From the NCBI GenBank assembly GCA_040881665.1, contig JBBECT010000004.1, positions 630,303-694,302 of the forward strand: 64,000 nt of DNA. Direction: 5' to 3'. The notes beneath the pieces were generated by a model, which made no database searches, was not told the origin of the DNA, and saw only the letters and a program-made list of their open reading frames with translations. Positions 1,328 to 17,972 of the stretch are shown here, piece by piece (position 1 is the first letter of the stretch; each line of letters opens with the position of its first letter). The stretch is from Actinomycetota bacterium (GTDB lineage Bacteria; Actinomycetota; UBA4738; HRBIN12). The position numbers and the translations under genes were made by a program.

Positions 1328-2268
1328 TGGCGCTCGGACCGCTGGCGCTCTTGCCGTATCCGTTCGACGCCACGTTCATGGAGCGCGCGCTCGTCGCCGG
1401 CCTCGTCGTGGGCGTGTTCGCGCCGATCATCGGCACGTTCCTCGTGCAGAAGCGGATGGCCTTGATCGGGGACGGGATCGGGCACTTGGCCTTCGCGGGC
1501 GTGGGCGCCGGCTTGCTCGTCGGCGTCTGGCCCCTGTGGGGAGCGCTCGTGCTAGCGGTCGGCGGGGCGATCGCCGTCGAACGGATGCGCGCGCGGAGGA
1601 AGGCGTCCGGTGACCTGGCCCTCGCGTGGATCTTCTACACGGGGATCGCGCTCGGCGTCGTTCTCGTCGGCCTGGCGGGATCGCTCAACGCGAACCTGTT
1701 CTCGTACCTGTTCGGGCAGGTCCTGCTCGTGACGGGATCCGAGCTGGCGCTGATCGTTCCCCTCGGGATCGTCGTGACCGTCGTCGTCCTGGTCCTGCGC
1801 CGTCCACTGCTCGCGGTCGTGACCGACGAGGACTGGGCCCGCGTGGCGGGCCTGCCCGTCGATCTGCTGAACATGATGCTCGCGGTGCTGACCGCCGTGG
1901 CGATCGTCACAGCGATGCGTGTCGTCGGCATCCTGCTCGTCGCCGCGCTGATGGTGCTGCCGGTGGCGAGCGGCCAGCTGCTCGCCCGTTCGTTCCGTGG
2001 AACGATGGCGTGGTCGGTGGGGATCGGCATCGCATCGGTCGTCGGGGGCCTGGCGATCTCGAGACTGTGGGGGTTCGCTCCCGGAGGGACGATCGTCTTG
2101 CTCGCCTCCGCCGTGTTCGCCGTCGTCGCGTTGACGACATCGCGCCGGCCGGACCGTGCGATCAGGGCGATCGGACTCCGGGTGGACGAACCTGCGCCGC
2201 AGCACGGATCGGGACACGACTCCGATGTCTCGGGAGCCCCTGTTCTCGGCGATTCTCAGTCTGACTGA
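1327..2268 (+). CDS. znuB: Zinc ABC transporter permease
   Basis: A 313-residue polytopic membrane protein of the ABC-3 family (ZnuB/MntC type) that forms the channel of the importer. About eight hydrophobic segments are visible, starting at residues 15-35. The family signature GDGIGHLAFAGVGAGLLVG is present near residue 50, as is the conserved membrane segment AMRVVGILLVAALMVLPVA. I chose the ATG that overlaps the ATPase stop codon (TGATG) over the TTG three bases upstream. The polar C-terminal tail (about 35 residues, His- and Asp-rich) is longer than usual. The last codons overlap a perfect palindrome that is probably the operator of the next gene. Confidence 0.93.
   Translation: MALGPLALLPYPFDATFMERALVAGLVVGVFAPIIGTFLVQKRMALIGDGIGHLAFAGVGAGLLVGVWPLWGALVLAVGGAIAVERMRARRKASGDLALAWIFYTGIALGVVLVGLAGSLNANLFSYLFGQVLLVTGSELALIVPLGIVVTVVVLVLRRPLLAVVTDEDWARVAGLPVDLLNMMLAVLTAVAIVTAMRVVGILLVAALMVLPVASGQLLARSFRGTMAWSVGIGIASVVGGLAISRLWGFAPGGTIVLLASAVFAVVALTTSRRPDRAIRAIGLRVDEPAPQHGSGHDSDVSGAPVLGDSQSD
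2256..2268. promoter_or_regulatory. Perfect 6-1-6 palindrome, candidate Fur/Zur operator
   Basis: TCAGTC-T-GACTGA is a perfect inverted repeat with a single central base. It sits across the znuB stop codon and directly abuts the -10 hexamer TACACT (2269-2274) of the regulator gene. A protein bound here would block that promoter, so autoregulation by the Fur-family product is the natural reading. The short, GC-mixed half-sites differ from the AT-rich Zur boxes of model organisms, so binding is inferred only. Confidence 0.5.
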
Positions 2269-2274
2269 TACACT
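2269..2274 (+). promoter_or_regulatory. -10 element TACACT of the Fur-family gene
   Basis: TACACT lies eight bases before the ATG at 2283, which predicts a leaderless or near-leaderless transcript. There is no purine-rich Shine-Dalgarno between it and the start. The same TANNNT arrangement recurs before many genes of this window. Confidence 0.5.
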
Positions 2275-2282
2275 CCCCCGCC

Positions 2283-2720
2283 ATGGCAGCCAGCGACCTC
2301 CACACGATCGTCGGCGCGCGCCTCCGGACTGCGGGTCAGCGGTACACGAGCAAGCGTCGTGTGCTGGTGGAGATCCTCGAGCGCGCTCGTCAGCCGGTGT
2401 CGATCCCCGACATCCTGCGTTCGCGCAGGGGATTGGCGCAGAGTTCGGTGTACCGGAACCTCGCGGCGCTCGAGCAGGCGCACGTCCTGCGCCGAGTCGT
2501 CACGGGCGAGGACTTCGCGCGCTTCGAGCTGTCCGAGGATCTGACCGAGCACCATCACCACCTCGTATGCTCGAACTGCGGCACCGTGCAGGACGTCACG
2601 ATCCCCCAGCGCCTCGAGCGCAGCATGGAACGCGCGCTCGATGAGATCGCCGAGGGAACCGGGTTCACCGCGGTGAGCCATCGGCTCGACCTGATCGGCA
2701 CCTGCAAGGCCTGCGCCTGA
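2283..2720 (+). CDS. zur: Fur-family metalloregulator, probably Zur
   Basis: A 145-residue Fur-family repressor. A winged helix occupies residues 10-80, with recognition helix around AQSSVYRNLAALE (52-64). It is followed by the metal-sensing hinge with the His run HHHH (90-93), the first CxxC (C96, C99 in LVCSNCG) and a second CxxC at the C-terminus (C141, C144 in TCKACA). The two CxxC pairs form the structural zinc site of this family. Its position directly behind znuABC makes zinc sensing (Zur) the best call. Fur, Mur or PerR cannot be excluded from sequence alone. It is likely autoregulated through the palindrome at 2256-2268. Confidence 0.85.
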   Translation: MAASDLHTIVGARLRTAGQRYTSKRRVLVEILERARQPVSIPDILRSRRGLAQSSVYRNLAALEQAHVLRRVVTGEDFARFELSEDLTEHHHHLVCSNCGTVQDVTIPQRLERSMERALDEIAEGTGFTAVSHRLDLIGTCKACA

Positions 2721-2728
2721 CACGCGTT

Positions 2729-2760
2729 CGCCCGCCGGACACGACCGTCGGTGTCGGGCG
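2729..2760. terminator. Imperfect hairpin between convergent genes
   Basis: CGCCC (2729-2733) pairs with GGGCG (2756-2760), and GACAC (2738-2742) pairs with GTGTC (2751-2755), with a four-base bulge on the left and an eight-base loop. It lies between the convergent stops of the regulator and the YcgQ-like gene, so it may terminate both. There is no T tract. Confidence 0.4.
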
Positions 2761-2766
2761 ACGGGT

Positions 2767-3516
2767 CTACGGGGAGAGGTACGCGGGGTTCGGTTCGGTC
2801 GCCGCGGTGATCGACGACTGGTCGACGATCACCTCACGGCCGAGCGGGTAGATCGTTCCGTCGACGGTGACCCACTCGTCGATCTCCCACGTGCCGGGAG
2901 GAACGTTGACGACGCGAACGGAGGCGACCGTTGCGTCCGCCACGCAGCACGAGACGATGAACCGGGTGAGGAGGAACTCGTCCGCGGGCGTACCGGGCTC
3001 CCTGTCGACGAACCCGACGAACGAGACCTGTTCACCTGCTCGCTTCGCGAGCGCCTGCTGACCCTCCTTCGAGGTCTGCGCGCCCGCGACGTCGAGCAGC
3101 GTGAGTGCTCCCTCGCCGATCTCGCTCGCCGACGCGGTGTAACCGGCGGCGGCCGCATCGCCCCGTCGCCCGGCCGCGAACGAGGTCAGCGTGGACGGCG
3201 GCAGTACGAGCGTCACCAAGACCGGGACGAGGAGCAGCCCGAGCATCCATGCCTGCCGCCGACCGAGCGGGGTGGGGTCGCGCTCCCGGGCCGTGAGCAG
3301 TCGCCCGACGGCAGCGACCGTCAACAGCACCGCGCCAACCGGAACCACCCACTCGGTGCGGCTCGACAGGTATTGCGACGAGCGGCCGCTGACGAGCAAG
3401 AACCAGAACGTGCCGGCCCACAGGGTCAGCACGATCCCCGTCGCCACCCGGTACGCGCTCCAGGTCGCATCGGAGGCCGAACGGGGCCGCACACCGTCGC
3501 CCGTCGTGGCGTTCAT
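2767..3516 (-). CDS. YcgQ-like TIGR03943 family membrane protein
   Basis: A 249-residue protein of the TIGR03943 (UPF0703/YcgQ) family, which usually accompanies an ArsP_1/YcgR permease. It has two N-terminal helices (about residues 18-38 and 48-65), a third near 82-100, and a C-terminal soluble domain. That domain holds the typical core VSFVGFVDREPGTPADEFLL followed by SCCVADA. The ATG at 3516 overlaps the permease stop by four bases (ATGA), so the two are translationally coupled. Its function is not established; YcgQ/YcgR pairs are linked to metal homeostasis in some bacteria, which fits the neighbouring zinc uptake genes. A longer in-frame upstream extension overlaps the permease and is not credible. 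Confidence 0.82.
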   Translation of the reverse strand: MNATTGDGVRPRSASDATWSAYRVATGIVLTLWAGTFWFLLVSGRSSQYLSSRTEWVVPVGAVLLTVAAVGRLLTARERDPTPLGRRQAWMLGLLLVPVLVTLVLPPSTLTSFAAGRRGDAAAAGYTASASEIGEGALTLLDVAGAQTSKEGQQALAKRAGEQVSFVGFVDREPGTPADEFLLTRFIVSCCVADATVASVRVVNVPPGTWEIDEWVTVDGTIYPLGREVIVDQSSITAATEPNPAYLSP

Positions 3517-4547
3517 CCGATCAGCACCTGGAGCCAGAGACAGGCGACGAGCACCATCGCGCCGGTCACGATCACGACCATACGCGCGAAGCCACGATTG
3601 AAGATCCCCATGTAGAGCGCCACGAGCTTCATGTCCACCATCGGCCCGAACACGAGGAACGCGAGCTGGGACGAGGGACCGAACTGGACGAACGAGGCGG
3701 CGACGAACGCATCCGATTCCGAACACAGCGAGAGCAGGAACGCCAACCCCATCATCGCCAAGATCCCGAGCACCGGCGCGTCGGCGACCCCGTTCACGAT
3801 CGACTGCGGCACGAACGTCTGCACCGCCGCCGCCAAGGCAGCGCCGACGACGAGGAACTTCGCCATGAACAGGAAGTCACCGCCCAGGTGGCCGAAGAAA
3901 CGCGGCCACCGAGCCTCGACCGGTCGCTCATCGGCTTCTTCGACAGCTTCGTGCGCCGCCAGCGGTCGCAGCAGCTCGTCCTTCGAGCGCGATCCGACGA
4001 CCCAGCCCGCCACGATCGCCACGAGGATCCCGAGCGCCGCGCGGCCGAGCACCATCGTCCACACGACGCTCCGTCCTTGGTAGGCGAAGAACGTGGACGC
4101 GAGCACGACGGGGTTCACGATCGGCGCGGCGAGCATGAAGGTCACCGCGGCGGCGGGGGACAGCCCCTTCATCGCCAGGCGACGCGCGACGGGCACCGAT
4201 CCGCATTCGCACACGGGGAACGCGACCCCGCCCAGAGCCGCCGCCGGGAGCTGCATCGGCTTCGGGAGGCGCGCGAGCCGCTCGAAGGTCGACACCGGCA
4301 CGAACACCTCGATCGTCGCCGACACGAGCGCTCCGAGGAGCACGAAGGGGAGTGCCTCGATCAGCAGTCCGCTGAACACGAGGAAGAAGTTCTGCAGCCA
4401 CGCGACCGAGTCGGGATCGGTGATCCGCAGCAGGACCGCTCCGACAGCGAGCGTCACGAGGACAGGAACCGCCGCCCGCCACGGGTGGGAGCGTTCGGGA
4501 GGGATCGGCAGGGGAGCGTGCGGCGGCGTCCGGACCGTCTGCGCCAT
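3513..4547 (-). CDS. YcgR/ArsP_1-like permease
   Basis: A 344-residue inner-membrane permease of the UPF0718/ArsP_1 family (pfam03773). About eight to ten hydrophobic segments are visible. The diagnostic loop FPVCECGSVPVARRL carries the conserved CxC pair, and a second conserved stretch SLCSESDAFVAAS corresponds to the repeated half. The ATG at 4547 overlaps the stop of the upstream gene by one base (TGATG), and the stop overlaps the YcgQ-like gene. All three minus-strand genes therefore form one operon. Substrate unknown. Related proteins export organoarsenicals or act in metal homeostasis; nothing here points to arsenic. Confidence 0.85.
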   Translation of the reverse strand: MAQTVRTPPHAPLPIPPERSHPWRAAVPVLVTLAVGAVLLRITDPDSVAWLQNFFLVFSGLLIEALPFVLLGALVSATIEVFVPVSTFERLARLPKPMQLPAAALGGVAFPVCECGSVPVARRLAMKGLSPAAAVTFMLAAPIVNPVVLASTFFAYQGRSVVWTMVLGRAALGILVAIVAGWVVGSRSKDELLRPLAAHEAVEEADERPVEARWPRFFGHLGGDFLFMAKFLVVGAALAAAVQTFVPQSIVNGVADAPVLGILAMMGLAFLLSLCSESDAFVAASFVQFGPSSQLAFLVFGPMVDMKLVALYMGIFNRGFARMVVIVTGAMVLVACLWLQVLIG

Positions 4548-5902
4548 CAGCAGAACCTCCCGAACTGGACGGCGAACCCGCCGAACGCGTCGGCGAGCAG
4601 TGCCGTCCCGTCCGGCTGACGTGATCCGAGCATCGCCTGGACCGCCGTGCCCGAGCCCACGCCGGCGGCGACCAGCGCCTCCTGGTCGAGGAACAGACCG
4701 CCCGGTTGCGACCACTCCACGGCAGCGGCCTCGCCCGGCACGGCGTCGTCCGCGGCGCGGATGAGCTGGTCGACCGGGATCGTCGCCCTGCCTCGCACCG
4801 GACCGGTGGCGGAACCGGTTCCTACGACGCTCACCAAGAGCCGATCGCCGCTCGCGGCGCGGGCCCGTTCCACGATCCCTCGCAGTTGGTCATCCATCGC
4901 CGGGATCGAGTCTCGCACGACGGCCCCAAGCACGTCAGGGGTCGCGTCGCCGCCGAAGCCGTCTGCGAGCAGACGCCCGGTCGCCGTCTCCGTCTCCCCG
5001 GGACGCGCGAGGGTGACCTCGTCGCGGTCGCCGACGGCGTACCAGTCGCGACCGACCAACCCGAGATCGGCGGGGTCATCGGCGACGAGGCCGATGCGGG
5101 CGGATCCGGCGAAGGGACCGTCGTACTCGAGATCGTCGGCGAACGTCGCGATCACGCTCAGGGGTGCCTCGGCGCTCCATGCGCGGGCGAGCGCGCCGCC
5201 GCGGTCGTCGTTGCGGAGCCAGGTACCGGTGATCCCATGATCGGCGGGCGTCGCCCCCGTGCCGATCGTCGTGAGCGTGGCTGCCGGGTCCAGCGGCAAA
5301 GATCCCGCATCGCCCTCCAGCGTTCCCGACCCCTCGCGCAGCAGCGAGCGCAGGAACGGCCACGCCCGCGGCTGAGCCTCGAGCTCGGCCGACCCGATCC
5401 CCTTCAACGCCACGACGAGGACGAGCCGGGCTCGTTCGGTCGAGGTGACCGCGATCGGTTCGCCCGGATGCACGCCCGGGAACGCCCAATCGGAACCGAG
5501 CGCCTCCAGCAGCGTCGGGGCCACCGCGTCCAACCCGGCACCGTCGGGGATCGGAGCGTTGGGATGCACTCCCGTTCCCGCGAACACGATCGGGACGCGG
5601 CCCGACGGTGGGTCGTTGGCCGACGGCCACGCGGGGTCCACCCCTCGCTGGCCGCCGCCGTCCCACCCCCAGAGCACCGGCTCGCCGGGAACCGTCAGCA
5701 CGTCCGGGGACCGTTGCTCCCGGTACCCCGCGGCGAGGTCTTCGCGCAACGGGGCCGGGAGCGAACAGAAGGGGACCTCGGAGGAGGCCGCCGCCGGTTC
5801 GTCGCAGCTGCTGCCGATACACGCGATGTCGAGCGCGATCGCCGGCAGGGCGACGACCGCGAGCACGGTGAGCAGGGGGACCAGCCGAGTTCGGTACGTC
5901 AC
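4547..5902 (-). CDS. Degenerate alkaline-phosphatase-superfamily protein, probable pseudoenzyme
   Basis: A 451-residue exported protein that is a divergent relative of the five enzymes on the opposite strand. After a signal anchor it shows the same permuted N-terminal block (VPIVFAGTGV, then VAPTLLEALG, then GEPI), and then ATLTTIGTGATPADHGITG, equivalent to the enzymes' nucleophile region. The first metal-ligand Asp of VWD is replaced (LVVALKG), the P-S/T-x-T nucleophile motif is lost (SLPLDPAAT), and no D-x3-H or DHG ligand motif is recognisable. Catalysis is therefore unlikely. It keeps the Cys near the mature N-terminus (PFCSLP) and a C-terminal Cys. I chose GTG 5902 because TAGCGT lies seven bases upstream; a GTG at 5911 is also in frame. 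It heads an operon with the YcgR/YcgQ-like pair. Role unknown; a binding or regulatory partner of the enzymes is possible. Confidence 0.75.
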   Translation of the reverse strand: MTYRTRLVPLLTVLAVVALPAIALDIACIGSSCDEPAAASSEVPFCSLPAPLREDLAAGYREQRSPDVLTVPGEPVLWGWDGGGQRGVDPAWPSANDPPSGRVPIVFAGTGVHPNAPIPDGAGLDAVAPTLLEALGSDWAFPGVHPGEPIAVTSTERARLVLVVALKGIGSAELEAQPRAWPFLRSLLREGSGTLEGDAGSLPLDPAATLTTIGTGATPADHGITGTWLRNDDRGGALARAWSAEAPLSVIATFADDLEYDGPFAGSARIGLVADDPADLGLVGRDWYAVGDRDEVTLARPGETETATGRLLADGFGGDATPDVLGAVVRDSIPAMDDQLRGIVERARAASGDRLLVSVVGTGSATGPVRGRATIPVDQLIRAADDAVPGEAAAVEWSQPGGLFLDQEALVAAGVGSGTAVQAMLGSRQPDGTALLADAFGGFAVQFGRFC

Positions 5903-5909
5903 TCCGACC

Positions 5910-5915
5910 ACGCTA
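5910..5915 (-). promoter_or_regulatory. -10 element TAGCGT, leaderless
   Basis: On the minus strand TAGCGT is followed by seven bases and then GTG at 5902, the spacing expected for a leaderless mRNA. It would drive the pseudoenzyme-permease-YcgQ operon. Confidence 0.45.
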
Positions 5916-6098: not shown

Positions 6099-7769
6099 AT
6101 GAAACACCGTGCCCGCCTCGCTGCCGCCGTCGCGACCCTGTCCCTCGCTGCCGCCGTGCTCGTCGCCGCGCTCCCGGGATCGCAGGCGGCCGGACAGTCG
6201 GCGACATCCCAGCGTCGGGTCGAGGAGGCCGCCTGCGACGTCCCGCACCAGTACCTGTTGCGAACGTGGCGCGGATGGCGCCCCGATAGGGGTCCGGAGA
6301 TCGCGATGATCCCGATCTACCCGAACTACGTGGGTGCCGGTCTGCCGCACGTCGGTCCGTGGCCCTACGTGCAGGAGGTTCCGATCCTCTGGTACGGCCC
6401 GGGACATGTCCCCCCGACCGGTGAGGTCAAGCGCCCGGTCACCGTCGCGGGCATCGCTCCCACGATGGCCGAGATGCTCGACCAGCCGTTCCAGGCGATC
6501 GACGGCCAGCCACTTCGCGAGGCGCTCGGCCGAAAGGGGGAGCGCGCAGATCCGCCGAAGCTCGTGGTGACGATGATCTGGGACGCGGCGGGCAACAACG
6601 TTTTGAAGGAACATGCCGGCGCCTACCCCTACCTCGAGTCGCTGAAGGACGCGGGCGTCTGGTACTCGAACGCCACGGTCGGGTCGAACCCCACCTCGAC
6701 CGCGCAGATCCACACGACGATCGGCACGGGCGCGTTCCCGCGCAATAGCGGACTCGTCGGTCACCGGCTGCGGATCGGCGAGGAGATCACGACGCCGTGG
6801 TCGCAGGGTCCCGCCTTCATCAACGTTCCGACGTTCGCGGACATCTACGATCGGGCGAACGGCAACGAACCGGTCGTCGGGCTGATGGGAACGGTCTCGA
6901 TCCACGCCGGCTTGATCGGACACGGGTCGATGTGGGGTGGCGGCGACAAGGACATCGTGATGCTGCGCCAGGCCGTCGACGGCGACACGATCGGCGAAGA
7001 GACGTTCCAATGGAACCTGCCGGGGTCGCTGCAGGCGTACTTCGAGTTCCCCGAGTACGCGAACGCCGTCCCCGGCTTCGAGGCCGACGTCGACGAGATG
7101 GACCGTGCCGACGGCAAGCTCGACGGGAACTGGCGGAACAACGAGATCGCGCCCCTCCTGGACGGGTTCGACACGCCCGCGCGCCCGATCTATCAGGAGC
7201 GGGTGCTCGAAGAGCTGATCGAACGCGAGGGCTTCGGGCAGGACGACGTCACCGACCTCTTGTTCGTGAACCACAAGATCATCGACTACATCAGCCACGT
7301 GTGGACGATGAACAGCCCCGAGATGAACGATGCGGTCAAGGCCGAGGATCGAGCCCTCGAGACGCTCGTGACCTTCCTCAACGAGCACGTCGGGAAGGAC
7401 GAATGGGTGCTTGCGCTCACCTCGGACCACGGATCGATCCCCGACCCGAAGATCTCGGGTGCCTTCCAGATCTCGACGACGCCGATCGCGGCGGGGATCA
7501 ACATCGAGTTCGATACCGATGGGGACGAGAACTACATCGTCGAACTCGTCCAGCCGGTCGGGATCTTCATCGACGAAGAGGAACTCCGTCAGAACGGCCA
7601 CACCCTCGCGGAGGTTGCCGAGTACGTGATGGATCTCACGAAGGCCGACGTCGCGGCGGAGGGTGTGAACGTCCCGGCGGGTCAGGCGGACGATCGGGTG
7701 TTCGAGGCCGCCTTCCCGATGGAGTCGATGACCGACGTCCCGTGCCTGCCGGAAGCGCGTCGCGGCTGA
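6099..7769 (+). CDS. Exported phosphodiesterase/AP-superfamily enzyme, array member 1
   Basis: A 556-residue secreted enzyme (signal peptide about 1-31). It is expected to hydrolyse phosphate esters with two metal ions, as in nucleotide pyrophosphatase/phosphodiesterases. NPP-type ligands are all present but in permuted order. LPHVGPW (H84) and the fold's usual C-terminal block (VPILWYGPG, then IAPT, then DGQPL) come first. D162 (MIWD), nucleophile T199 in PTSTAQIH (H205), D396-x3-H400 (DYISH) and D443-H444 (SDHG) follow. Nothing like the HxGPW/VPxxxYGPG/APT block follows SDHG. Cys46 and a Cys eight residues from the C-terminus are conserved in all copies and could form a disulfide joining the termini. 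This is the only copy with Thr as nucleophile. ATG 6099 was chosen because the signal peptide starts there. Substrate unknown. Confidence 0.85.
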   Translation: MKHRARLAAAVATLSLAAAVLVAALPGSQAAGQSATSQRRVEEAACDVPHQYLLRTWRGWRPDRGPEIAMIPIYPNYVGAGLPHVGPWPYVQEVPILWYGPGHVPPTGEVKRPVTVAGIAPTMAEMLDQPFQAIDGQPLREALGRKGERADPPKLVVTMIWDAAGNNVLKEHAGAYPYLESLKDAGVWYSNATVGSNPTSTAQIHTTIGTGAFPRNSGLVGHRLRIGEEITTPWSQGPAFINVPTFADIYDRANGNEPVVGLMGTVSIHAGLIGHGSMWGGGDKDIVMLRQAVDGDTIGEETFQWNLPGSLQAYFEFPEYANAVPGFEADVDEMDRADGKLDGNWRNNEIAPLLDGFDTPARPIYQERVLEELIEREGFGQDDVTDLLFVNHKIIDYISHVWTMNSPEMNDAVKAEDRALETLVTFLNEHVGKDEWVLALTSDHGSIPDPKISGAFQISTTPIAAGINIEFDTDGDENYIVELVQPVGIFIDEEELRQNGHTLAEVAEYVMDLTKADVAAEGVNVPAGQADDRVFEAAFPMESMTDVPCLPEARRG

Positions 7770-9451
7770 GCCGCCGCGGGTCGAGCCTCGTGGCGGCGCT
7801 GGTGCTCCTCGTCGCTGGATCGGCCGCGTGCACCGCCTCGGGATCCGATCCCGATGCGCGCACGGCCCGCGATCGGCCGTCGCCGGATCGGTTCGTGCCT
7901 GCGAGAGACACCGACCGTGCCTGGGGCCTGGCGGCGTGTGAGGTGCTCCCGGCGGTCTGGCTCGAACGGATCGCTCGCGGGTACCGCGCGGACCGCAGCG
8001 GAGAGGTGCAGATCGTTCCTCTGTATCCGAACCAGATCGATCCCGGACTTCCGCACAATGGACCGTGGGACGAGGTGCAGGACGTGCCGTTGTTCCTCTA
8101 CGGCCCCGGCGTGATCCCTGCGGTCGGGCGCGTCGAGCGACCGGTGACGGTGGCCGACGTCGCGCCGACGGTCGGGGCGCTCGCGGACAGTGGCTTCGAG
8201 GCCCCCGACGGCCATGTGCTTCACGAGGCGGCCGACGGCCGCCGGAGTCCGCGACTGGTGGTCGTTCTCGTCTGGGACGCGGTCGGGCGCGGCGTGCTGG
8301 ACCGCCACGCGGATGCGTGGCCGACGCTGGCATCGCTGATCGACGACGGCGCGTGGTACGAGCGGGCGTCGGTCGGTTCGTCGCCGTCGCAGACCGCGCA
8401 GGTGCACGCCACGATCGGGACGGGTGCCTTCCCGCGGACCCACGGGCTGATCGCGCATCGGTTCCGCGTCGACGGCGAGCTGGTCACGCCGTGGGGCGAG
8501 GGAACGGCGTTGCTCGAGGTCCCCACGGTCGGCGACATCCTCGACATCGAGCACGACAACGCGGCCCAGGTCGGGTTCGTCGGCACCCTGATGATCCACC
8601 TCGGGCTCCTCGGCCATGGGAGCGACTTTCCGGGCGGTGACGCCGACCTCGCGGTGCTCCGGGAGCAGGAGGGCGCGCAGACACTCGGTGCCGAGGGCGA
8701 GGAGTGGAACCTGCCGGCGCCGGTCGCGGGCGCGTTCGCCTTCCCGTCCTGGGTCGCGCGCGTCGAGCCCGGTCTGGCGCACGACGTCGACGCGCTCGAT
8801 CGCGCGGACGGTTCCCTCGACGGAACGTGGCGCGGCAACGACATCGCGACCCTGCTCGACGGATTCGACACGCCGGCTCGTGCGCCCTACCAGCAGCGGG
8901 TGATCGAGGCGGTGATCGAGCGGGAGGGGTACGGCGCGGACGAGGTCACGACGGACGTCCTGTGGGTCAACGAGAAGTTCACCGACTACGTGAGTCACGT
9001 GTGGTCGGTCGACAGTCCCGAGATGGCCGACGCCGTCCGTTCGCAGGACGACGCCCTCGCGCGGCTCCTCGCGTTCCTCGATGAGAAGGTCGGGCGTGGG
9101 CGGTGGGCGATCGCGCTCACCGCCGATCACGGATCGGTGCGTCCCCCGCCCTCGACCGGCGGAGCCGTTCTGTCCTCGGTGGCGCTGCAGGCCACGCTCG
9201 AGCGCCGGTTCGGCGAGGGTGTCGTCGAGCTCGTGCAGGACACCCAGCTCTTCTTGGACACCGATCGCCTGGAACGCGACGGGGACACGGCCGCGGACGT
9301 CGCCCGGACGGTCCTGGCGCTCACCGCCGGGGAGCTCGCCCCCCCCGACGCCGATCTGGACGCCGATCTTCGGAACGCTCCTGCCTTCGAGGCGGCGTTC
9401 CCTTCGGGAGCGCTCGAGGCGATGCCCTGCATCAGCGAGGCCGCCGCATGA
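7742..9451 (+). CDS. Exported phosphodiesterase/AP-superfamily enzyme, array member 2
   Basis: A 569-residue paralogue of member 1 with the same permuted motif order: H105 (LPHNGPW), VPLFLYGPG, VAPT and DGHVL, then D179 (LVWD), nucleophile S216 in PSQTAQVH, D-x3-H in DYVSH, and ADHG. It is the most divergent active-looking copy: the MWGGGDKD motif of its siblings is FPGGDAD here. Its N-terminus looks like a lipoprotein signal (VLLVAGSAAC, Cys30), unlike the others. The GTG at 7742 gives a complete signal peptide and overlaps the preceding gene by 28 bases; GTG 7790 is an alternative. The stop overlaps member 3 by four bases. Same inferred chemistry; substrate unknown. Confidence 0.83.
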   Translation: MPAGSASRLSRRGSSLVAALVLLVAGSAACTASGSDPDARTARDRPSPDRFVPARDTDRAWGLAACEVLPAVWLERIARGYRADRSGEVQIVPLYPNQIDPGLPHNGPWDEVQDVPLFLYGPGVIPAVGRVERPVTVADVAPTVGALADSGFEAPDGHVLHEAADGRRSPRLVVVLVWDAVGRGVLDRHADAWPTLASLIDDGAWYERASVGSSPSQTAQVHATIGTGAFPRTHGLIAHRFRVDGELVTPWGEGTALLEVPTVGDILDIEHDNAAQVGFVGTLMIHLGLLGHGSDFPGGDADLAVLREQEGAQTLGAEGEEWNLPAPVAGAFAFPSWVARVEPGLAHDVDALDRADGSLDGTWRGNDIATLLDGFDTPARAPYQQRVIEAVIEREGYGADEVTTDVLWVNEKFTDYVSHVWSVDSPEMADAVRSQDDALARLLAFLDEKVGRGRWAIALTADHGSVRPPPSTGGAVLSSVALQATLERRFGEGVVELVQDTQLFLDTDRLERDGDTAADVARTVLALTAGELAPPDADLDADLRNAPAFEAAFPSGALEAMPCISEAAA

Positions 9452-11118
9452 GGACTAGGGGTGCGCGACCGCTCGTCATGGCCGGGGCGATCGCCCTCGT
9501 CTCGGCCGTTGCCGGCCTCGCTGTTCGACCGGCAGCGGGAGCCGAGGCGTTCGACCACGGGGCGGCGCGACGGCGGGCGATCCGATCTGCGTGCGCGCTT
9601 GCACCCGAGCAGCTCCGCCGGATCGAGGACGGGATCCGCGCCGATCGCAGCGGCGAGATCCAGGTCGTCCCCGCGGAGCCCGACTACCTCGACGGCGGAC
9701 TGATGCACGCCGGACCCTGGGACTACCTCCAAGAGGTGCCCGTGCTCTGGTACGGACCGGGCTTCGTCCGTGACGCGGGCCGGGTCGACCGACGGGTCAC
9801 GGTCGCCGATATCGCGCCGACGCAGGCCGCGTTGCTCGGTTTCGACGGCTTCGATGCCCCCGACGGCAGCACGATGACCGAGGCGCTGCCCTTCGACGCC
9901 GGGGAGGACCCACCCAAGCTCCTCGTCACCCTCGTCTGGGACGCCGCGGGGCGGAACGTGCTGACCCGTTGGCCGGACAGCTGGCCGACGCTCGCGGGGC
10001 TGGTCGAAGACGGCACCTGGTACGAGCGCGCGGAGGTGGGGTCCTCACCTTCGAATACGCCACCGATCCACGCCTCGATCGGGACGGGCGCGTTCCCCGA
10101 CCACCACGGCATCGTCGACGTCTTCATGCGCGTCGGCGACGGCCCGCTGATCCAACCGATGAACCTCGGTCCGGGCAACCTCCTCGAGCCCACGCTCGCG
10201 GACGTCTACGATCGGGCGTTGGGCAACGAACCGGTGGTCGGCGCGGTCGCCACCTTGTCGGGCCACCTGGGATTCCTCGGGCACGGATCGATGTGGGGTG
10301 GCGGCGACAAGGACGTCGCGGTCACGAGGGAACTGATCGATGCCGCGGTCGGTGGGTCGGAGGGTCCGCAGTGGAACCTCGCGCCCTCCATGGCGCGCTG
10401 GTACCGGTTCCCTGCCTACGTCCTCGACGTCGGGGGCTACGGGGCCGACGTCGATGCGGTCGATCGCTCCGACGGCGAGTTCGATCGAGCGTGGCACGGC
10501 GATCCCTTCACGCAGCTGAACGCAGGGTTCGATTCTCCTGCGCGCATCCCGTACCAGACCCGCGTGATCCAGCAGGTGCTGCGGCGCGAGGGGTTCGGCC
10601 GGGACCGGGTCCCGGATCTGCTGTTCCTCAACTACAAGGCCATGGACCGGGTGGGTCACCTGTTCTCCGTAGATTCACCACAGATGCGGGAGACCTTGGA
10701 GGCGCAGGACGAGTATCTTCGCGTGCTGATCGACGAACTCGATCGAACGGTCGGCGAAGGGGACTGGGCGATGGTGATCACCGCGGATCATGGGCACCAG
10801 TTCGATCCGGAGGTCAGCGGGGCGTTCCGGATCTCGATCTCCACGACCCAGGATCTGTTGGAAGAACGGTTCGACGACGGGGACGATGTGAAGCTGTTCG
10901 ACAAGGTCAAGCCGACGCAGGTGTGGCTCGACGAATCGGAGCTGCAGCGCAACGGGCATCCGCTGCTCGAGCTCAACGATGCGCTGTTGTCGCTGACCCA
11001 GGCGCAGACCGCCGCGTCCCCCGAGCTCGTCCACGACCCCGACGCGCTCGCGCTCGCCGCCGCGTTCCCGACGGATCTGCTCGACGAGCTCCCCTGCGCC
11101 CCCGAGGGCGACGCGTGA
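9448..11118 (+). CDS. Exported phosphodiesterase/AP-superfamily enzyme, array member 3
   Basis: A 556-residue paralogue. Signal peptide about 1-32 (cleavage near AGAEA). The mature N-terminal Cys49 is followed by the permuted block: GIRADRSGEIQVVP, H87 (MHAGPW), VPVLWYGPG, ADIAPT and APDG. The nucleophile half follows: D165 (LVWD), S202 in PSNTPPIH with H208, MWGGGDKD, NYKAMDRVGH supplying D-x3-H, and ADHGHQ. The segment RADRSGE..VVP followed by HxGPW and VPxxxYGPG closely resembles the C-terminal end of classical PafA-type phosphatases, which is the clearest sign of permutation. Start ATG overlaps member 2 (ATGA); stop overlaps member 4 (GTGA). Confidence 0.85.
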   Translation: MRTRGARPLVMAGAIALVSAVAGLAVRPAAGAEAFDHGAARRRAIRSACALAPEQLRRIEDGIRADRSGEIQVVPAEPDYLDGGLMHAGPWDYLQEVPVLWYGPGFVRDAGRVDRRVTVADIAPTQAALLGFDGFDAPDGSTMTEALPFDAGEDPPKLLVTLVWDAAGRNVLTRWPDSWPTLAGLVEDGTWYERAEVGSSPSNTPPIHASIGTGAFPDHHGIVDVFMRVGDGPLIQPMNLGPGNLLEPTLADVYDRALGNEPVVGAVATLSGHLGFLGHGSMWGGGDKDVAVTRELIDAAVGGSEGPQWNLAPSMARWYRFPAYVLDVGGYGADVDAVDRSDGEFDRAWHGDPFTQLNAGFDSPARIPYQTRVIQQVLRREGFGRDRVPDLLFLNYKAMDRVGHLFSVDSPQMRETLEAQDEYLRVLIDELDRTVGEGDWAMVITADHGHQFDPEVSGAFRISISTTQDLLEERFDDGDDVKLFDKVKPTQVWLDESELQRNGHPLLELNDALLSLTQAQTAASPELVHDPDALALAAAFPTDLLDELPCAPEGDA

Positions 11119-12770
11119 GCGCGCGCCGTCTGCGTGCGGGCGCACGTCGCATCGTGCTGCCGTCGGTGGTGGTGGCCAGCCTCGTGACCGGTCTCGCCGT
11201 CGCCGCAGGGGGCGGCGCGTCCGCCGCGCAGGACGGGTTCGACGAGATCGCGTGCTCGCTGCCGCACGAGCAACTCGTGCGCGTCTACAACGGAACGCAC
11301 CCGACGCGCTCGGGCGACGTGATCGTCGTTCCGGACGAGCCGAATTTCCTGGGGTCGAACTTCCCGCACTCGGGTCCGTGGGACTACCTGCAGGAGGTTC
11401 CGATCTTCTGGTACGGCCCCGGCCACGTCCCGCCGGTCGGAGAGATCCCGGGGCGGGTGACCGTTGCCGACCTCGCACCGACCTTCGGTGAGCTCGTCGG
11501 GTACCCCTTCGATGCTCCCGACGGGACGCCGCTGCCCGAGATCGTCAAGGGCGCCCGCGGTACCGAGGCTCCTCGCCTGATCGTCACCCTCGTCTGGGAC
11601 GGCGGCGGTCGATCGGTGCTCGAGCGATGGCCGGACGAATGGCCCTACCTGAAGTCGTTGCTGCCCCAGGGCGCCTGGTATCGCAACGGGGAGGTCGGCT
11701 CATCTCCGTCGATCACACCCGCGACCCACGCGACGATGGGCACGGGCGCGTTCCCTCGGCTGACCGGACAGGTCGACAGCGAATTCCGGCTCGCCGACGG
11801 ACTGGCCCGCAGCGGACAGCTCGGTCCGGCGTTCCTGCAGGAGCCGACCTTCGCCGACCTCTACGATCGTGCGCTGGACAACGAGCCGATCGTCGGCATC
11901 GTCGCGAGCGTCACCTGGCATCTGAACATGATGAGCCACGGCGCGATGTGGGGTGGCGGCGACAAGGACATCGCGATCCTGCGCACGACCGAGGGCGACG
12001 AGGGCGCCGAGGGGACCGCCTGGAACCTCCAGGGGAAGAACCGTCCCTTCTACGATCTGCCCGCGTACGCGAACGATGTGCCCCCCGTCACCGCCTACAC
12101 CGAAGCGCTCGACCGGCAGGACGGCAAGCTCGACGGCAAGTGGCGGCAGGACTCGATCGAACAGCTGCACGAGGGCTTCGACACGCCCGCGCGCGTTCCG
12201 TACCAGACCGCGGTGGTCGAGCAGCTCCTCCAGAAGGAGGACTTCGGCTCGGATGAGGTCACCGACCTGCTGTACCTGAACTACAAGATCATCGATCACA
12301 TCGGGCATGTGTACAGCGCGAGCAGCCTCGAGATGAAGGACACGATCCGCTGGCAGGACGACGGCTTGCGCGAGCTCGTTCGGATCCTCGACCGGGAGGT
12401 CGGCAAGCGGAAGTGGCTCTTCGTCCTCACCTCCGACCACGGCCATCAGTTCGACACCGAGGAGACCGGCGCCTTCGGTGTCGCGCCCGGTGCGCTCGAA
12501 GCGGACCTCAACGTGGAGTTCGACGACGGGGACGACACCCCTGCGGTGCTGAAGGTCCGAACGAGCCAGGTGTACATGAACCGGGATGAGGTTGCGGACG
12601 CCGACGCGACGATCGACGACGTCGCACGGTTCACCGGCGCGTACACGAAGGAACAGGCCGCTCCCGATCTCAGCGCCGTCCCCGCGAGCGAGCGCTCCGA
12701 CCGGGTGTTCGACGCCGTGTTCCCGATGGAGACCCTCGACGACCTCGCCTGCCTGAAGGAGAACCGATGA
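11115..12770 (+). CDS. Exported phosphodiesterase/AP-superfamily enzyme, array member 4
   Basis: A 551-residue paralogue starting at a GTG that overlaps the previous stop. Signal peptide about 1-38 (cleavage near ASAAQ). Conserved residues are Cys47, H85 (FPHSGPW), VPIFWYGPG (95-103), ADLAPT and APDG, then D162 (LVWD), S199 in PSITPATH (H205), MWGGGDKD, NYKIIDHIGH (D-x3-H) and SDHGHQ. The N-terminal stretch NGTHPTRSGDVIVVPDEP closely matches the sequence that precedes the last metal-ligand His in unpermuted family members. It is followed with a four-base overlap by member 5. Inferred: zinc-dependent phosphate-ester hydrolase acting outside the membrane; substrate unknown. Confidence 0.85.
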   Translation: MSARRLRAGARRIVLPSVVVASLVTGLAVAAGGGASAAQDGFDEIACSLPHEQLVRVYNGTHPTRSGDVIVVPDEPNFLGSNFPHSGPWDYLQEVPIFWYGPGHVPPVGEIPGRVTVADLAPTFGELVGYPFDAPDGTPLPEIVKGARGTEAPRLIVTLVWDGGGRSVLERWPDEWPYLKSLLPQGAWYRNGEVGSSPSITPATHATMGTGAFPRLTGQVDSEFRLADGLARSGQLGPAFLQEPTFADLYDRALDNEPIVGIVASVTWHLNMMSHGAMWGGGDKDIAILRTTEGDEGAEGTAWNLQGKNRPFYDLPAYANDVPPVTAYTEALDRQDGKLDGKWRQDSIEQLHEGFDTPARVPYQTAVVEQLLQKEDFGSDEVTDLLYLNYKIIDHIGHVYSASSLEMKDTIRWQDDGLRELVRILDREVGKRKWLFVLTSDHGHQFDTEETGAFGVAPGALEADLNVEFDDGDDTPAVLKVRTSQVYMNRDEVADADATIDDVARFTGAYTKEQAAPDLSAVPASERSDRVFDAVFPMETLDDLACLKENR

Positions 12771-14437
12771 GTCCCCACCTCCCTCGGCGCCACCGGCGCC
12801 TCGTCCTGCTCGTGGTGACGGCGTCCGTGGCGCTCGCCGGCGTGCTTCCGTCGATCGCGGCAGAGAGTCAGGACGCGTTGTCGGATCGGCTGTGCTCGAC
12901 GGTCGACCCCGAGCTGCTGCGCCGCGTGCGCGACGGTGTCGACCTGGCACGCAGCGGGCAGGTGCAGTTCATCGCCGAGGAGCCGAACTTCGTCGACGGC
13001 GGTCTGACGCACGCGGGGCCGTGGGGTTACGTGCAGGATGTGCCGCTGTTCCTGTACGGATCGGACTACTTCAAGCCCGGGACCTACGAGCAACGGACCA
13101 CACTCGCCGACATCGCCCCGACCCAGGCGGAGCTGCTGGACTTCCCGGCCTTCCGGGCGCCCGACGGCCGGGCTCTGACCGAGGCGATGCAACCGAACGA
13201 CCGTCGCCCGATGCCGAAGCTGGTCGTCACGCTCGTCTGGGACTCGGCGGGGATGGATGTCTTGAGCGAGTGGCCGAAGTCCTGGCCCTACCTGAAGTCG
13301 TTGCGCAAGGACGGAGCGTGGTTCACGAACACGATCGCCGGCGCTTCCCCGTCGAACACTCCCGTGAGTCACGCCACGATCGGCACGGGAGCGCTCCCTT
13401 CACGGCACGGGTTCACCGACGAGTTCATCTTCCTGAACGACAAGCTGCAGAAGCCGAACGAGAACGGTCCCGGGTTCTTGATGGAGCCGACCTTCGCCGA
13501 CATGTACGACGCGTCGAACGGCAACGAGCCGATCGTCGGCGTGATCGCCACCCTCTCGGCGCACGTGATGATGATGGGTCACGGGAACATGTGGGGCGGG
13601 GGCGACAAGGACCTCGCCGTTACCCGGGAGAAGGAGGACGCCGAAACCGGCGGTGCCGAGAGCGTCACCTGGGGGATGACGACCGACATGGCCCCCTTCT
13701 ACAGGTTGCCGCAGTACGTCAACGGACTCGGCCCGATCACGCCGTTCAACGAGGAGCTCGATCGCGCGGACGGCAAGGACGACGGGAAATGGCGCCAGAA
13801 CGATATCGCGCAGTACGCGAACGGCTTCGACACCCCTGCGCGCACGCCGTACCAGACCCAGCTCGTGAAGGAAGTGGTCACGGAGGAAGGGTTCGGCAAG
13901 GACGATGTCACCGATCTGCTGTTCCTGAACTACAAGGCGATCGACACGATCGGCCATCGGTTCAGCGCGAACGGCATCGAGATGTCGGACGCCGTGAAGA
14001 CCCAGGATGACGATCTGAAGCAGCTCGTGTCGTTCCTGGACGCGGAGGTGGGGAAGGACCGATGGGCGATGGTCCTCACGTCCGATCACGGGACGAACCA
14101 GGACCCCGCGAAGACCGGTGCGTTCCAGATCTCGATCGACCAGCTCGAGACCCTGGTGATCGAGGAGTTCGACGATGACGACGACGTCCCGGTGATGCTG
14201 CGGATGCGGCCGACGCAGGTCTGGCTCGACGTGGCCGAGCTCGAGCAGAACGGGCACACGATCGAGGAGGTGGCCGCGCGCATCGATGCATTGACCCAGG
14301 CAGAAACGGTGAAGCCGACCTTGGCGCCCGCGCCGGAACCGGGCGAACGAGTGTTCTCGGCCGCCTTCCCGTCGTCTATCCTGTTCGAGCTTCCGTGCCT
14401 GCCCGGCGCGCGCGGGGGAGCGGAACCGGGCGACTGA
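12767..14437 (+). CDS. Exported phosphodiesterase/AP-superfamily enzyme, array member 5
   Basis: A 556-residue paralogue and the last of the array. Signal peptide about 1-32. Key residues are Cys43, H82 (THAGPW), VPLFLYGSD (the usual GPG is GSD here), ADIAPT, D159 (LVWD), S196 in PSNTPVSH with H202, MWGGGDKD, NYKAIDTIGH (D-x3-H) and SDHGTN. A 67-base gap separates it from the GT-C/MFS fusion gene, with no obvious terminator, so the fusion gene may be part of the same transcript. Like the others it ends with a conserved Cys (LPCLPG) near the C-terminus. Confidence 0.85.
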   Translation: MSPHLPRRHRRLVLLVVTASVALAGVLPSIAAESQDALSDRLCSTVDPELLRRVRDGVDLARSGQVQFIAEEPNFVDGGLTHAGPWGYVQDVPLFLYGSDYFKPGTYEQRTTLADIAPTQAELLDFPAFRAPDGRALTEAMQPNDRRPMPKLVVTLVWDSAGMDVLSEWPKSWPYLKSLRKDGAWFTNTIAGASPSNTPVSHATIGTGALPSRHGFTDEFIFLNDKLQKPNENGPGFLMEPTFADMYDASNGNEPIVGVIATLSAHVMMMGHGNMWGGGDKDLAVTREKEDAETGGAESVTWGMTTDMAPFYRLPQYVNGLGPITPFNEELDRADGKDDGKWRQNDIAQYANGFDTPARTPYQTQLVKEVVTEEGFGKDDVTDLLFLNYKAIDTIGHRFSANGIEMSDAVKTQDDDLKQLVSFLDAEVGKDRWAMVLTSDHGTNQDPAKTGAFQISIDQLETLVIEEFDDDDDVPVMLRMRPTQVWLDVAELEQNGHTIEEVAARIDALTQAETVKPTLAPAPEPGERVFSAAFPSSILFELPCLPGARGGAEPGD

Positions 14438-14504: not shown

Positions 14505-17500
14505 ATGGCGTTGACGAAGGACGCCCCAGCGCAGCGCGATGCCGCCGCGGTCGCCGGAACGGGCCCCGGACGGATCTGGAGCGCCCCGTGGGTGCTGATC
14601 GCGCTGACCGCGGTCCTGCTGACCTTCCTCGCGTGGGGCTTCATCGACGATCCGACGATCAGCGCCCCGACCCGCGATCCGGCCTGGTACACGTGGCGCG
14701 CGAACGTGGTCTTCGAGGACGAGCCGGTCAGGATCGTCGAGGAGTGGGGCCCCTTCAGCGCCTTCTCCGGCGGCTACCGCGTGACGGTTCCGATGTTCGG
14801 CGCGCTGATGCGCGGCGTGGGCGGCGTCGAGACCTTCCAGTTCAGCGGCATCCTGATGATCGGTATCCCGGTGCTCGCCGGCTTGGCGATGGGCGCGTTC
14901 GGCTATCGAACCAAGAAAGATCCTGCCCTGATCCTGCTGACGTTGTTGGCGGCGGCCGGGTTGTTCCTCACGACGCCGTACGTCGGTTACCTCGACAACA
15001 TCTTCGTACTGTTCGTCCTCGCGTCGATCCTCGCGTTCGTCCCGAGCGCGCAGACGTCCTGGGGGGCCCGAGCCGCGTGCTTCCTGCTCGGGATCCTCGC
15101 CGCCTTCACGCACCCGACGACGTGCGTGCTATTCGGGTTGTCGTTGCTCGCGGTGTTCGGGTGGCGTGTGCTGACGGCTCGGTTCCGATTCGGCGACGCT
15201 CTTCGCCGGCACGGTCCTGCGCTGATGTCCGTCGGGTTCGGGATGGTCGTCGGGCTCGCGATGTGGGTCGTCGGCATATGGGGGAAGCCGGCGTCGCTCG
15301 TCGAGGCGGCGCTCCCACCGCCCTACGAGGGGACCTTCTTCAACGATCGGCAGCTCGACTGGATCCTCAGCATGAAGCCGCTCGTCACGTTCACGCTCGC
15401 GACGATCGCGGTCGTCGCCACGATCGCGATCTCACGACGACGTCGCGAACCGGCCGACACCTACAGCGTCACCTCGATCTGGTTCCTGCTTCCGTACGCC
15501 GCGATCCTCGCCACGCCGCTCAACGCTCAGGCGACCGGGGACGAGAACGGCTTGCCGCTCTACCGGTTCTTCAACGCCACGACCGCGATCATGGTCTTGG
15601 CGGGTCTCGGGGCGTGGTTGTCGATCCGGTGGCTCTCCGGTCGCCCGGGGACTCAGAAGACGCTCGGCGTCCTCGCCTCGTCCGTGATCGTGGCTGCCCT
15701 CGGCTGGGTGTTCGTGAGCGGCTGGCAGACGTGGATCAAGCCGGACAACCAGTGGATCAGCCAGGAGACGCGTGTGGCGCTCTCGTCGGCCAACGAGATC
15801 GCGGAACGCGTGGACGATGTGCCCCTCGCGATCATCGGGAACTACGCGACCGAGCCGCAATCCTACGGATGGGGCAAGACGTTCACGAACGTGTTCCGCA
15901 CGACGCTGCCGGGAGAGGACGCCGAGCGGGTCGGAACCTACTGGGGCACGCTCGACAACTTCATCGCCGGCGAACCGACGAACTTCGAGAAGGACCGTGT
16001 GCCGACCGTCACGAACGACGAGCGGACGATGTCGGAGGGCTACCTCGCCCACCTGACCGCGGTGGCGGAGGAGCAAGGGGCCCCGCCCGTCGTCTTCGTC
16101 GTACGCGAGTTCTCGCTCGGGGAGAACAAGGAGCTGTTCCCCGAGGATGAGTCGTGTCTCGACGAGGGCACGGTGCCGCGGGAGGAGATCGTTCCGCTCG
16201 GGTGTGACATCGGCATCGTGTCCGTCGACGGTGTCACGACGACACCTTCCGACGAGGTGCTCGAGGCCGCTCGGCAGGCCGAGGTCGCGCAGCAGGCCGA
16301 GTTCGACGACCACGAGGGCCCGTTCGGGAACCCCGGTCACCTGCTCCAGGTCCTGCTCGCGCTGTTCCTCGTGTTCGTGCTTCCGGGTCTGCTCGCGGCT
16401 CGGTTCTTCGAGCTCGAGGGGTTCTTCACGAAGTTCAGTCTCGTGCCGGCGATCTCGGTGATGCTGACCCTGCTCACGGCGATCGTCGTCGCCGCGGTGT
16501 GGCGCGGACCGTTCGATGCCGCGCACGGATGGACCGCCGTGATCCTCGCGTCGGCGATCGGCGGCGCCCTCACCCTGTGGCGCGTCGGGATCATGAAGCC
16601 GTTCCAGGCGATAGCTCGATTCTTCAACGGGATGTTCGGCCTGTTCTCCGAGCGCGACTTCGCCACGCTGATGGGTGTCCAGTTCTTGATCCAGGCCGCC
16701 GACGGGGTGCTCCGAGGCACGATCGGCAAGTCGATCGGGTTCGGCGGTGAGGAGGGCTTCGACGTCACCACGGTGCCGTCGCCTCGCTACCTGCTCGCGG
16801 TCGTGCTCGCGCTCTACCTGCCCTACACGATCATCAGCCCATTCATCGGCGTGTTCATCGACCGCTTCGAACGCCGGCGGGTGCTCACCGTGTCGGCCGC
16901 CGCGACTGCGGTGCTCGCCGTCGTGATCGCGGCGCCGGTGTTGCTCTCGATCGGGGACGAGTCCTCGGAGGGCAAGGTCGGCGTCACGATCGCGTTGATC
17001 GTGGCGGTGCTGATCATCCAGGCCTGCGTGCGCATCATGCTCGCGGTGAAATCGGCCGCCTTGCCCGGGGTGCTTTCGGGCAGGGACCTGCTGCAGGGCA
17101 ACGGTCTGTCCCAGGCCGGTGGAGCGTTCTTCCAGATCGTCGGGATCGCGTTCGGTCTCGGAGCGAGCGCGTTCCTGCCGTCGTGGATCCTGATCGTGAT
17201 CGGTTCCGGCATCCTCGCGATCTCCGTGCTCGTCGCCCGGCAGATCCGGCGGATGGAGGTCACGAAGCACACGGCGACCTTCCGCGAAGAGGCCAAGCGT
17301 GTCGTCTCGGACATGATCGACGGACTGAAAGAAGTGGCGGCGCGCAAGCCGGCGGCGATCGGACTCGCCTCGTTCCAGATGTTGCGCTACCAGTTCTGGG
17401 GTTTCACGCTCTTCGTGTTCGCGCTCTACGCGTCCGAGCTGGCCAAGGGTGAGGACGCGAGCCTCGTCTCCCTCGCGCTGACCGGCGTCGGAGGGCTCCT

Positions 17501-17972
17501 TGGCGGCGTGCTCGGGATGATCCTCGCGCAGAAGTACAAGGACAAGATCCCGCCGATCCGGTTGCTGCTGTCGGCGATGTTCCTCCTCGGTGCCGGAGCC
17601 TTGGTGTTCGGGGGCTTCCTCGAGCTGTGGAGCTTCGGCTTGATGCTGTTCTGCGGGTTCCTCGGATTCTTCGTCGGGAAGATCTCCGCGGACACGATCG
17701 TTCAGCAGTCGATGCCCGACGACTTCCGCGGCCGCGCGTTCGCGCTGTTCGACATCGCCTACAACCTCGGATTCGTGATCCCGGCACTGATCCTGTTCTT
17801 CCTCTACGACGACTCCCGCGTCGCGGCGATCCTCGTCGGATCGGGCGCGGTCTTCCTCGTGCTGACGGCCCTCGTCGCGCGGTGGGCGGGGAAGCACTCG
17901 TCGGAGTTCCAGACGCAGGACGATCTGCACGACGTGGAACACGGAGCCGTGACCCAAGAGCCGACCGGCTGA
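14505..17972 (+). CDS. GT-C-like membrane protein fused to an MFS transporter
   Basis: A 1155-residue polytopic protein with two unlike halves. Residues about 28-400 hold roughly ten helices with a GT-C flavour, including an Asp in the first outer loop (RDPAWYTWRAN, D58) as in lipid-linked sugar transferases. Residues about 410-605 form an extracytoplasmic domain. Three helices follow (about 610-690). From about 705 the protein is a major facilitator: motif A-like FIDRFERRRVL near 780-790, SGRDLLQGNGLSQAGG near 865, and a helix set to about 1135. I read it as glycosyltransferase plus lipid or sugar transporter in one chain. The start has GAAGGGA upstream. Whether it forms part of a surface-glycolipid or phosphodiester pathway with the five preceding enzymes is inference. 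Confidence 0.75.
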   Translation: MALTKDAPAQRDAAAVAGTGPGRIWSAPWVLIALTAVLLTFLAWGFIDDPTISAPTRDPAWYTWRANVVFEDEPVRIVEEWGPFSAFSGGYRVTVPMFGALMRGVGGVETFQFSGILMIGIPVLAGLAMGAFGYRTKKDPALILLTLLAAAGLFLTTPYVGYLDNIFVLFVLASILAFVPSAQTSWGARAACFLLGILAAFTHPTTCVLFGLSLLAVFGWRVLTARFRFGDALRRHGPALMSVGFGMVVGLAMWVVGIWGKPASLVEAALPPPYEGTFFNDRQLDWILSMKPLVTFTLATIAVVATIAISRRRREPADTYSVTSIWFLLPYAAILATPLNAQATGDENGLPLYRFFNATTAIMVLAGLGAWLSIRWLSGRPGTQKTLGVLASSVIVAALGWVFVSGWQTWIKPDNQWISQETRVALSSANEIAERVDDVPLAIIGNYATEPQSYGWGKTFTNVFRTTLPGEDAERVGTYWGTLDNFIAGEPTNFEKDRVPTVTNDERTMSEGYLAHLTAVAEEQGAPPVVFVVREFSLGENKELFPEDESCLDEGTVPREEIVPLGCDIGIVSVDGVTTTPSDEVLEAARQAEVAQQAEFDDHEGPFGNPGHLLQVLLALFLVFVLPGLLAARFFELEGFFTKFSLVPAISVMLTLLTAIVVAAVWRGPFDAAHGWTAVILASAIGGALTLWRVGIMKPFQAIARFFNGMFGLFSERDFATLMGVQFLIQAADGVLRGTIGKSIGFGGEEGFDVTTVPSPRYLLAVVLALYLPYTIISPFIGVFIDRFERRRVLTVSAAATAVLAVVIAAPVLLSIGDESSEGKVGVTIALIVAVLIIQACVRIMLAVKSAALPGVLSGRDLLQGNGLSQAGGAFFQIVGIAFGLGASAFLPSWILIVIGSGILAISVLVARQIRRMEVTKHTATFREEAKRVVSDMIDGLKEVAARKPAAIGLASFQMLRYQFWGFTLFVFALYASELAKGEDASLVSLALTGVGGLLGGVLGMILAQKYKDKIPPIRLLLSAMFLLGAGALVFGGFLELWSFGLMLFCGFLGFFVGKISADTIVQQSMPDDFRGRAFALFDIAYNLGFVIPALILFFLYDDSRVAAILVGSGAVFLVLTALVARWAGKHSSEFQTQDDLHDVEHGAVTQEPTG

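Follow-up and report, generated by a model that had tools for sequence, protein, structure and literature searches.

A tandem array of putative exported hydrolases with a circularly permuted alkaline phosphatase fold in Actinomycetota

The array and its neighborhood

The window, our name for the whole stretch of 64,000 nucleotides that we analyzed, comes from a genome of 2.46 Mb in seven contigs; its close matches, where named, are metagenome-assembled Actinomycetota. Between 6099 and 14437, it holds five tandem open reading frames (P1 to P5), all on the plus strand, their ends overlapping by a few bases. The array proteins are 44 to 48% identical to P3. Each consists of a leading segment, the N-block, which corresponds to the C-terminal block of canonical members of the alkaline phosphatase (AP) superfamily, and a core, which corresponds to the canonical N-terminal and middle parts. 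A sixth paralogue, P0006, overlooked in the preliminary description of this DNA, is transcribed divergently from the array. The features are as follows; signal sequences were judged by eye.

4547..5911, minus strand: P0006, sixth paralogue; permuted order, all metal ligands and the nucleophile lost or deleted
6099..7769, plus strand: P1, putative exported circularly permuted PafA-like enzyme, 556 residues; Sec-type signal
6228..6527, plus strand: P1 N-block, former canonical C-terminal block with metal ligand His84, located by the N-block profile
6552..7760, plus strand: P1 core, equivalent to the canonical N-terminal and middle parts; D162, T201, D396, H400, D443, H444
7742..9451 (approximately), plus strand: P2, putative permuted enzyme with a lipobox-like signal (GSAAC); GTG start at 7742 assumed
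7931..8233, plus strand: P2 N-block, His105; PafA profile positions 460-543
8246..9445, plus strand: P2 core, located by the core profile
9448..11118, plus strand: P3, putative permuted enzyme, 556 residues; structure predicted for residues 40-556
9586..9888, plus strand: P3 N-block, His87; matches PafA residues 437-532
9910..11112, plus strand: P3 core; D165, T204, D400, H404, D447, H448, with C550 at its end
11115..12770, plus strand: P4, putative permuted enzyme, 551 residues
11247..11549, plus strand: P4 N-block, His85; weak match to the C-terminal end of the Pfam Sulfatase profile (E 0.12)
11568..12767, plus strand: P4 core, located by the core profile
12767..14437, plus strand: P5, putative permuted enzyme, 556 residues; top PafA-model score among the five
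12890..13192, plus strand: P5 N-block, His82; PafA profile positions 458-549 at 12905-13177
13211..14413, plus strand: P5 core, located by the core profile

Motifs vary a little from one protein to the next, with GIAPT and MIWD in P1, LYGPG in P2 and LYGSD in P5. A seventh permuted paralogue, also overlooked earlier, lies on another contig of the same genome (C7:182160-183680; L005/L054). It has an apparent N-terminal membrane anchor and is without the pair of terminal cysteines described below.

P0006 has a cysteine near its N-block and another as its last residue. Its orthologues occupy the same place in relatives, at 40 to 47% identity. Since it is conserved in this way and complete copies end in cysteine, we take P0006 for a probable functional pseudoenzyme rather than a pseudogene. 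The shared ending of the complete orthologues reads FAVxFxRYC. One of them comes from family f4 (L118), in which the searches turned up no strong match to the active form.

A zinc-uptake cluster occupies 197-4715 of the window, encoding ZnuA (which starts before the window), an ABC ATPase, an ABC-3 permease and a FUR-family regulator, and within the same interval lie DUF1980 and ArsP_1 permease genes that adjoin the enzymes. On the far side of the array (14505-17972) is a membrane protein of 1155 residues with a C-terminal MFS domain, found beside the array in relatives too; no Pfam family matches its N-terminal half. Six relatives keep most of this order: zinc uptake, DUF1980/ArsP_1, the pseudoenzyme (in those that have it), at least one permuted enzyme and the MFS protein. 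The number of permuted-enzyme copies ranges from one to five across the loci compared. A plasmid search gave weak partial matches at most.

The locus might form a module for zinc homeostasis, with the permuted enzymes serving as scavengers that depend on zinc or coming under Zur control, an idea compatible with permutation. The adjoining genes and their conserved order speak for it. Against it, no Zur-like box was found in the window with a single 15-base pattern allowing two mismatches, there is no AT-rich palindrome between 5911 and 6099, and the permuted enzymes of family f5 occur without those genes in the one locus compared (L163). The zinc link of the locus is suggestive; the module itself we regard as possible but doubtful.

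A rotated order of segments

The preliminary description held that the terminal block of the AP fold sits at the N-terminus of all five proteins, ahead of the first metal-ligand Asp, and that no second copy follows the SDHG motif. Both statements stand. The N-block profile finds a single match in each of the five, at residues 42-164 (E values of roughly 1e-48 to 1e-53), and the core profile follows directly; the best stray match after SDHG has E 0.54.

Separate searches with the two profiles agree with library models (phmmer, Pfam and NCBIfam) on the rotated order. Compared by phmmer with PafA (5tj3), P3 residues 156-223 match PafA 18-87 and residues 382-451 match 276-345, while residues 53-146, at the front of P3, match PafA 437-532. 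The NCBIfam PafA model tells the same tale: its stretches appear in the order of about 460-550, 30-108 and 288-440 in P1, P2, P3, P5 and the seventh paralogue (in P1, positions 465-550 match at 6264-6518), as they do in many relatives; in P4 the middle stretch alone passed E 1e-3. Pfam PF01663 matches every core (E 1e-20 to 1e-30) and ends at profile position 225-285 of 342. Residues 100-149 of P2, ahead of its core, match the end of the Pfam Sulfatase profile (252-300/301).

The most direct evidence comes from hhalign, with which a 56-row alignment of the family was compared with six PafA-like proteins of canonical order, from Acidobacteria and one planctomycete. In native order there are two out-of-order matches: one, with a score of 282, pairs query 115-480 with template 2-416, and the other, with a score of 134 (E 1e-16), pairs query 9-111 with template 433-533. 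Once the columns are rotated to start at residue 155, a single collinear match covers 468 columns, with a score of 405 (E 5e-53). Of 18 cut points scanned, residue 155, where the old N-terminus lies, gives the highest score. A phmmer search of the PDB with rotated P3 did not raise the score because phmmer sums local pieces.

In canonical relatives from Acidobacteria, Planctomycetes and Chloroflexi (L041-L047), the N-block profile matches behind the core; in Actinomycetota it comes before the core, in 98 distinct permuted N-blocks that include a few proteins of a second family, class B, described below. Between the block and core models lie just 4 to 11 residues, so that the old C- and N-termini are fused by a short linker; the new termini fall at one place and no block is duplicated, as befits a circular permutant. 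Circular permutation of the AP fold is supported by this direct sequence evidence, and permutation with the bimetal site kept, as first proposed, is the best reading of it, the activity being putative.

The active site and the predicted fold

The ligands survive the rearrangement. In P3 numbering, H87, D165, H208, D400, H404, D447 and H448 are invariant in all 56 rows of the alignment, and Thr204 is present in 55, with Ser in its place in one. All positions of the superfamily's bimetal ligand set and its Thr/Ser nucleophile are accounted for, in the relatives as in the five array proteins, which bears out the earlier statement that no metal ligand is missing. What differs is their order. The canonical sequence of first Asp, nucleophile, Asp/His, Asp-His and last His is broken in that the last His comes first.

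AlphaFold2, given P3 residues 40-556 and the 56-row alignment and no templates, returned a model of native P3 with pLDDT 95.8 and pTM 0.95, in which the N-block is as confident as the remainder. The top Foldseek matches in the PDB are PafA (5tj3) and PhoK (3q3q/5xwk), with probability 1.00 and E 4e-10. The in-order TM score is 0.50 to 0.55, a low value that is expected because Foldseek aligns in order and a fifth of the chain has changed its place.

The substrate is another matter. PafA residues N100, K162 and R164, named in the PafA mutant entry 5too, align with V, T269 and S271 and are not conserved as N, K and R. Lys397 is conserved in 56 of 56 rows and His273 in 52 of 56. Scores against NF042991 run from 92 to 122 bits, far below its equivalog cut-off of 650. 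Site conservation and the changed residues together suggest an active two-metal hydrolase with altered substrate preference. With N100, K162 and R164 not kept, and Lys397 and His273 kept, the substrate is probably something other than a generic phosphomonoester. Our best guess, to which we give even chances from the absent residues and the background on PafA, would be a phosphodiester or another phosphorus or sulfur ester.

New termini and other readings

By alignment, the chain has been broken between the helix that follows SDHG and the RSGDI strand. Both new ends carry a cysteine in 44 of the 56 members, 43 of which have exactly two cysteines in the aligned region, and both cysteines are absent in 10 of the 12 members without the full pair; these co-occurrence counts come from related sequences, and kinship limits their statistics. 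In P1 the pair is Cys46/Cys549, and in P3 it is Cys49/Cys550. In most members, a disulfide probably links the cysteine just before the N-block to the one at the very end of the chain, and would staple the new termini together in the oxidizing exterior.

Could the N-block be something else? One thought is that a C-terminal fragment of an AP enzyme was fused on as an additional, independent domain that lies outside the active site, as the contiguity of the block and its short linker to the core would allow. The proteins, however, have no further copy of the block that could complete the fold. His87 is invariant, the uniformly high pLDDT and the pTM of the model describe one compact predicted fold with the block inside it, and rotation yields a collinear full-length match. 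On the strength of the AlphaFold fold, the conservation of His87 and the hhalign rotation, we rejected the independent domain, the outcome that the preliminary description had named as fatal to its proposal, and consider it extremely improbable. A domain-swapped oligomer would accept the permutation as real and have each N-block complete the site of a partner subunit. Several paralogues in one tandem array would suit such an arrangement, but the linker of 4 to 11 residues, a monomer predicted with a pTM of 0.95 and the existence of single-gene loci make it very unlikely.

Unequal recombination in tandem arrays is a textbook route to permutation. The array of five genes overlapping by a few bases is just such a setting, and it also invites the suspicion that each N-block is nothing other than the tail of the canonical gene before it, misassigned at the boundary. 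Yet every N-block lies behind a stop codon, a start codon and a signal (by eye), in the same reading frame as its core, and the same order recurs in single-copy loci, in the paralogue on the other contig and in the divergent paralogue at 4547-5911. The single-copy permuted loci of relatives and the divergent paralogue rule out this misreading, whose chance of being right we put close to nil.

We return, then, to circular permutation, and to how such a protein would be built. The old C-terminal segment (about residues 49-147 of P3, with the last metal His and the GPG, DIAPT and DGxxL motifs) would now head the chain, with a short linker joining it to the old N-terminal strand that bears the first metal Asp. 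In the high-confidence prediction, the chain refolds into an ordinary single AP domain, its bimetal site built from both chain ends. By analogy with family chemistry, Thr204 would be the nucleophile that attacks phosphorus or sulfur, and two metals, presumably zinc, would bind the leaving and attacking oxygens. We are confident that the array enzymes are exported two-metal hydrolases of the PafA/PhoK branch of the superfamily and natural circular permutants whose N-block completes the site, a picture that takes in the disulfide staple and, at its own strength, the substrate guess.

Distribution and origins

About 35 of the 397 Actinomycetota genomes sampled have strong matches to the family (E < 1e-40); they belong to the order of the window's genome and to one other family, f5. 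One scan of genome contigs turned up no permuted forms outside Actinomycetota. Weaker matches led to the second permuted family, class B, whose NPP-like proteins of about 500 residues come from six other Actinomycetota families (L099-L104, L107-L110). The termini of class B lie elsewhere than those of the window family, and its Pfam matches are also rotated. Rotation lifts its hhalign score from 118 to 157; a predicted model has a pTM of 0.88, with NPP enzymes as the nearest structures.

Four further proteins, of 1181 to 1389 residues, are double, running C-block, core, C-block, core, with an inner pair that reads as canonical and an outer pair that is class-B-like:

L139:822-4649, double-AP protein
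L140:1574-5116, double-AP protein
L141:1716-5744, double-AP protein
L142:1328-5494, double-AP protein

In a tree of cores only, built with few canonical rows and from divergent sequences, the window family groups with PafA-like proteins of canonical order. The outer cores of the double proteins fall next to class B, and their inner cores next to a canonical protein. A single origin of all permuted classes was tried and rejected (single clade, AU p=0.001). Two origins of permutation are likely, not proven. Taking these strands together, we think there is a good chance that the AP fold was permuted at least twice independently in Actinomycetota, from a PafA-like ancestor (the window family, with its disulfide staple and changed substrate site) and an NPP-like one (class B); the double proteins may be living relatives of the duplication intermediate.

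Significance and relation to known enzymes

Work on catalytic promiscuity and enzyme evolution uses the AP superfamily as a model system. A complete bimetal site in a natural permutant would mean that the AP fold tolerates relocated termini, the site still being assembled from both ends. Two events in one phylum and a nested double protein, if true, would provide real sequences on which to study the duplication-and-truncation route. There is a practical warning too: profile models that depend on segment order overlook the N-block, so that permuted proteins seem to be without the last metal ligand.

No natural circular permutation in AP-superfamily enzymes, including arylsulfatases, NPPs and the AP-like fold, emerged from open-licence PMC papers, which is consistent with the original claim that no family with this order had been described. 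One study (PMC3779223) explains outliers in two superfamilies by circular permutation, AP not among them, and describes an insertion for the AP-like superfamily. An engineered, circularly permuted E. coli alkaline phosphatase was made by Kojima, Ayabe and Ueda in 2005, with high specific activity according to its title, as cited in PMC2395249, PMC3281007 and PMC8513176. It belongs to the same superfamily but is artificial and derived from PhoA, whereas the window family is natural and PafA-like. Natural permutation of a hydrolase does have a precedent in AlgX, AlgJ and PatB1, circularly permuted SGNH hydrolases with reordered catalytic residues (PMC9487903), although their fold and chemistry are unrelated to those of AP.

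Nearer to home, the NPP family lacks the Lys/Arg pair of PafA. NPP enzymes (PDB 2gsn/7mw8, ENPPs) belong to the same superfamily, and PF01663 matches the window-family cores, but NPPs keep the canonical order and are less similar to the window family; their permuted counterparts are class B. PhoK/SPAP of Sphingomonas (PDB 3q3q, 5xwk), the second-best fold match and a member of the same superfamily branch, is canonical in order where the window family is permuted. The closest known relative is PafA of the Elizabethkingia type (PDB 5tj3/5too, NF042991), the best match in both sequence and structure. It shares with the window family its fold, bimetal ligands, Thr nucleophile, GHG region and similar length; the window family differs in its rotated segments, its terminal cysteine pair, the presence of Lys397 and His273 and the absence of N100, K162 and R164.
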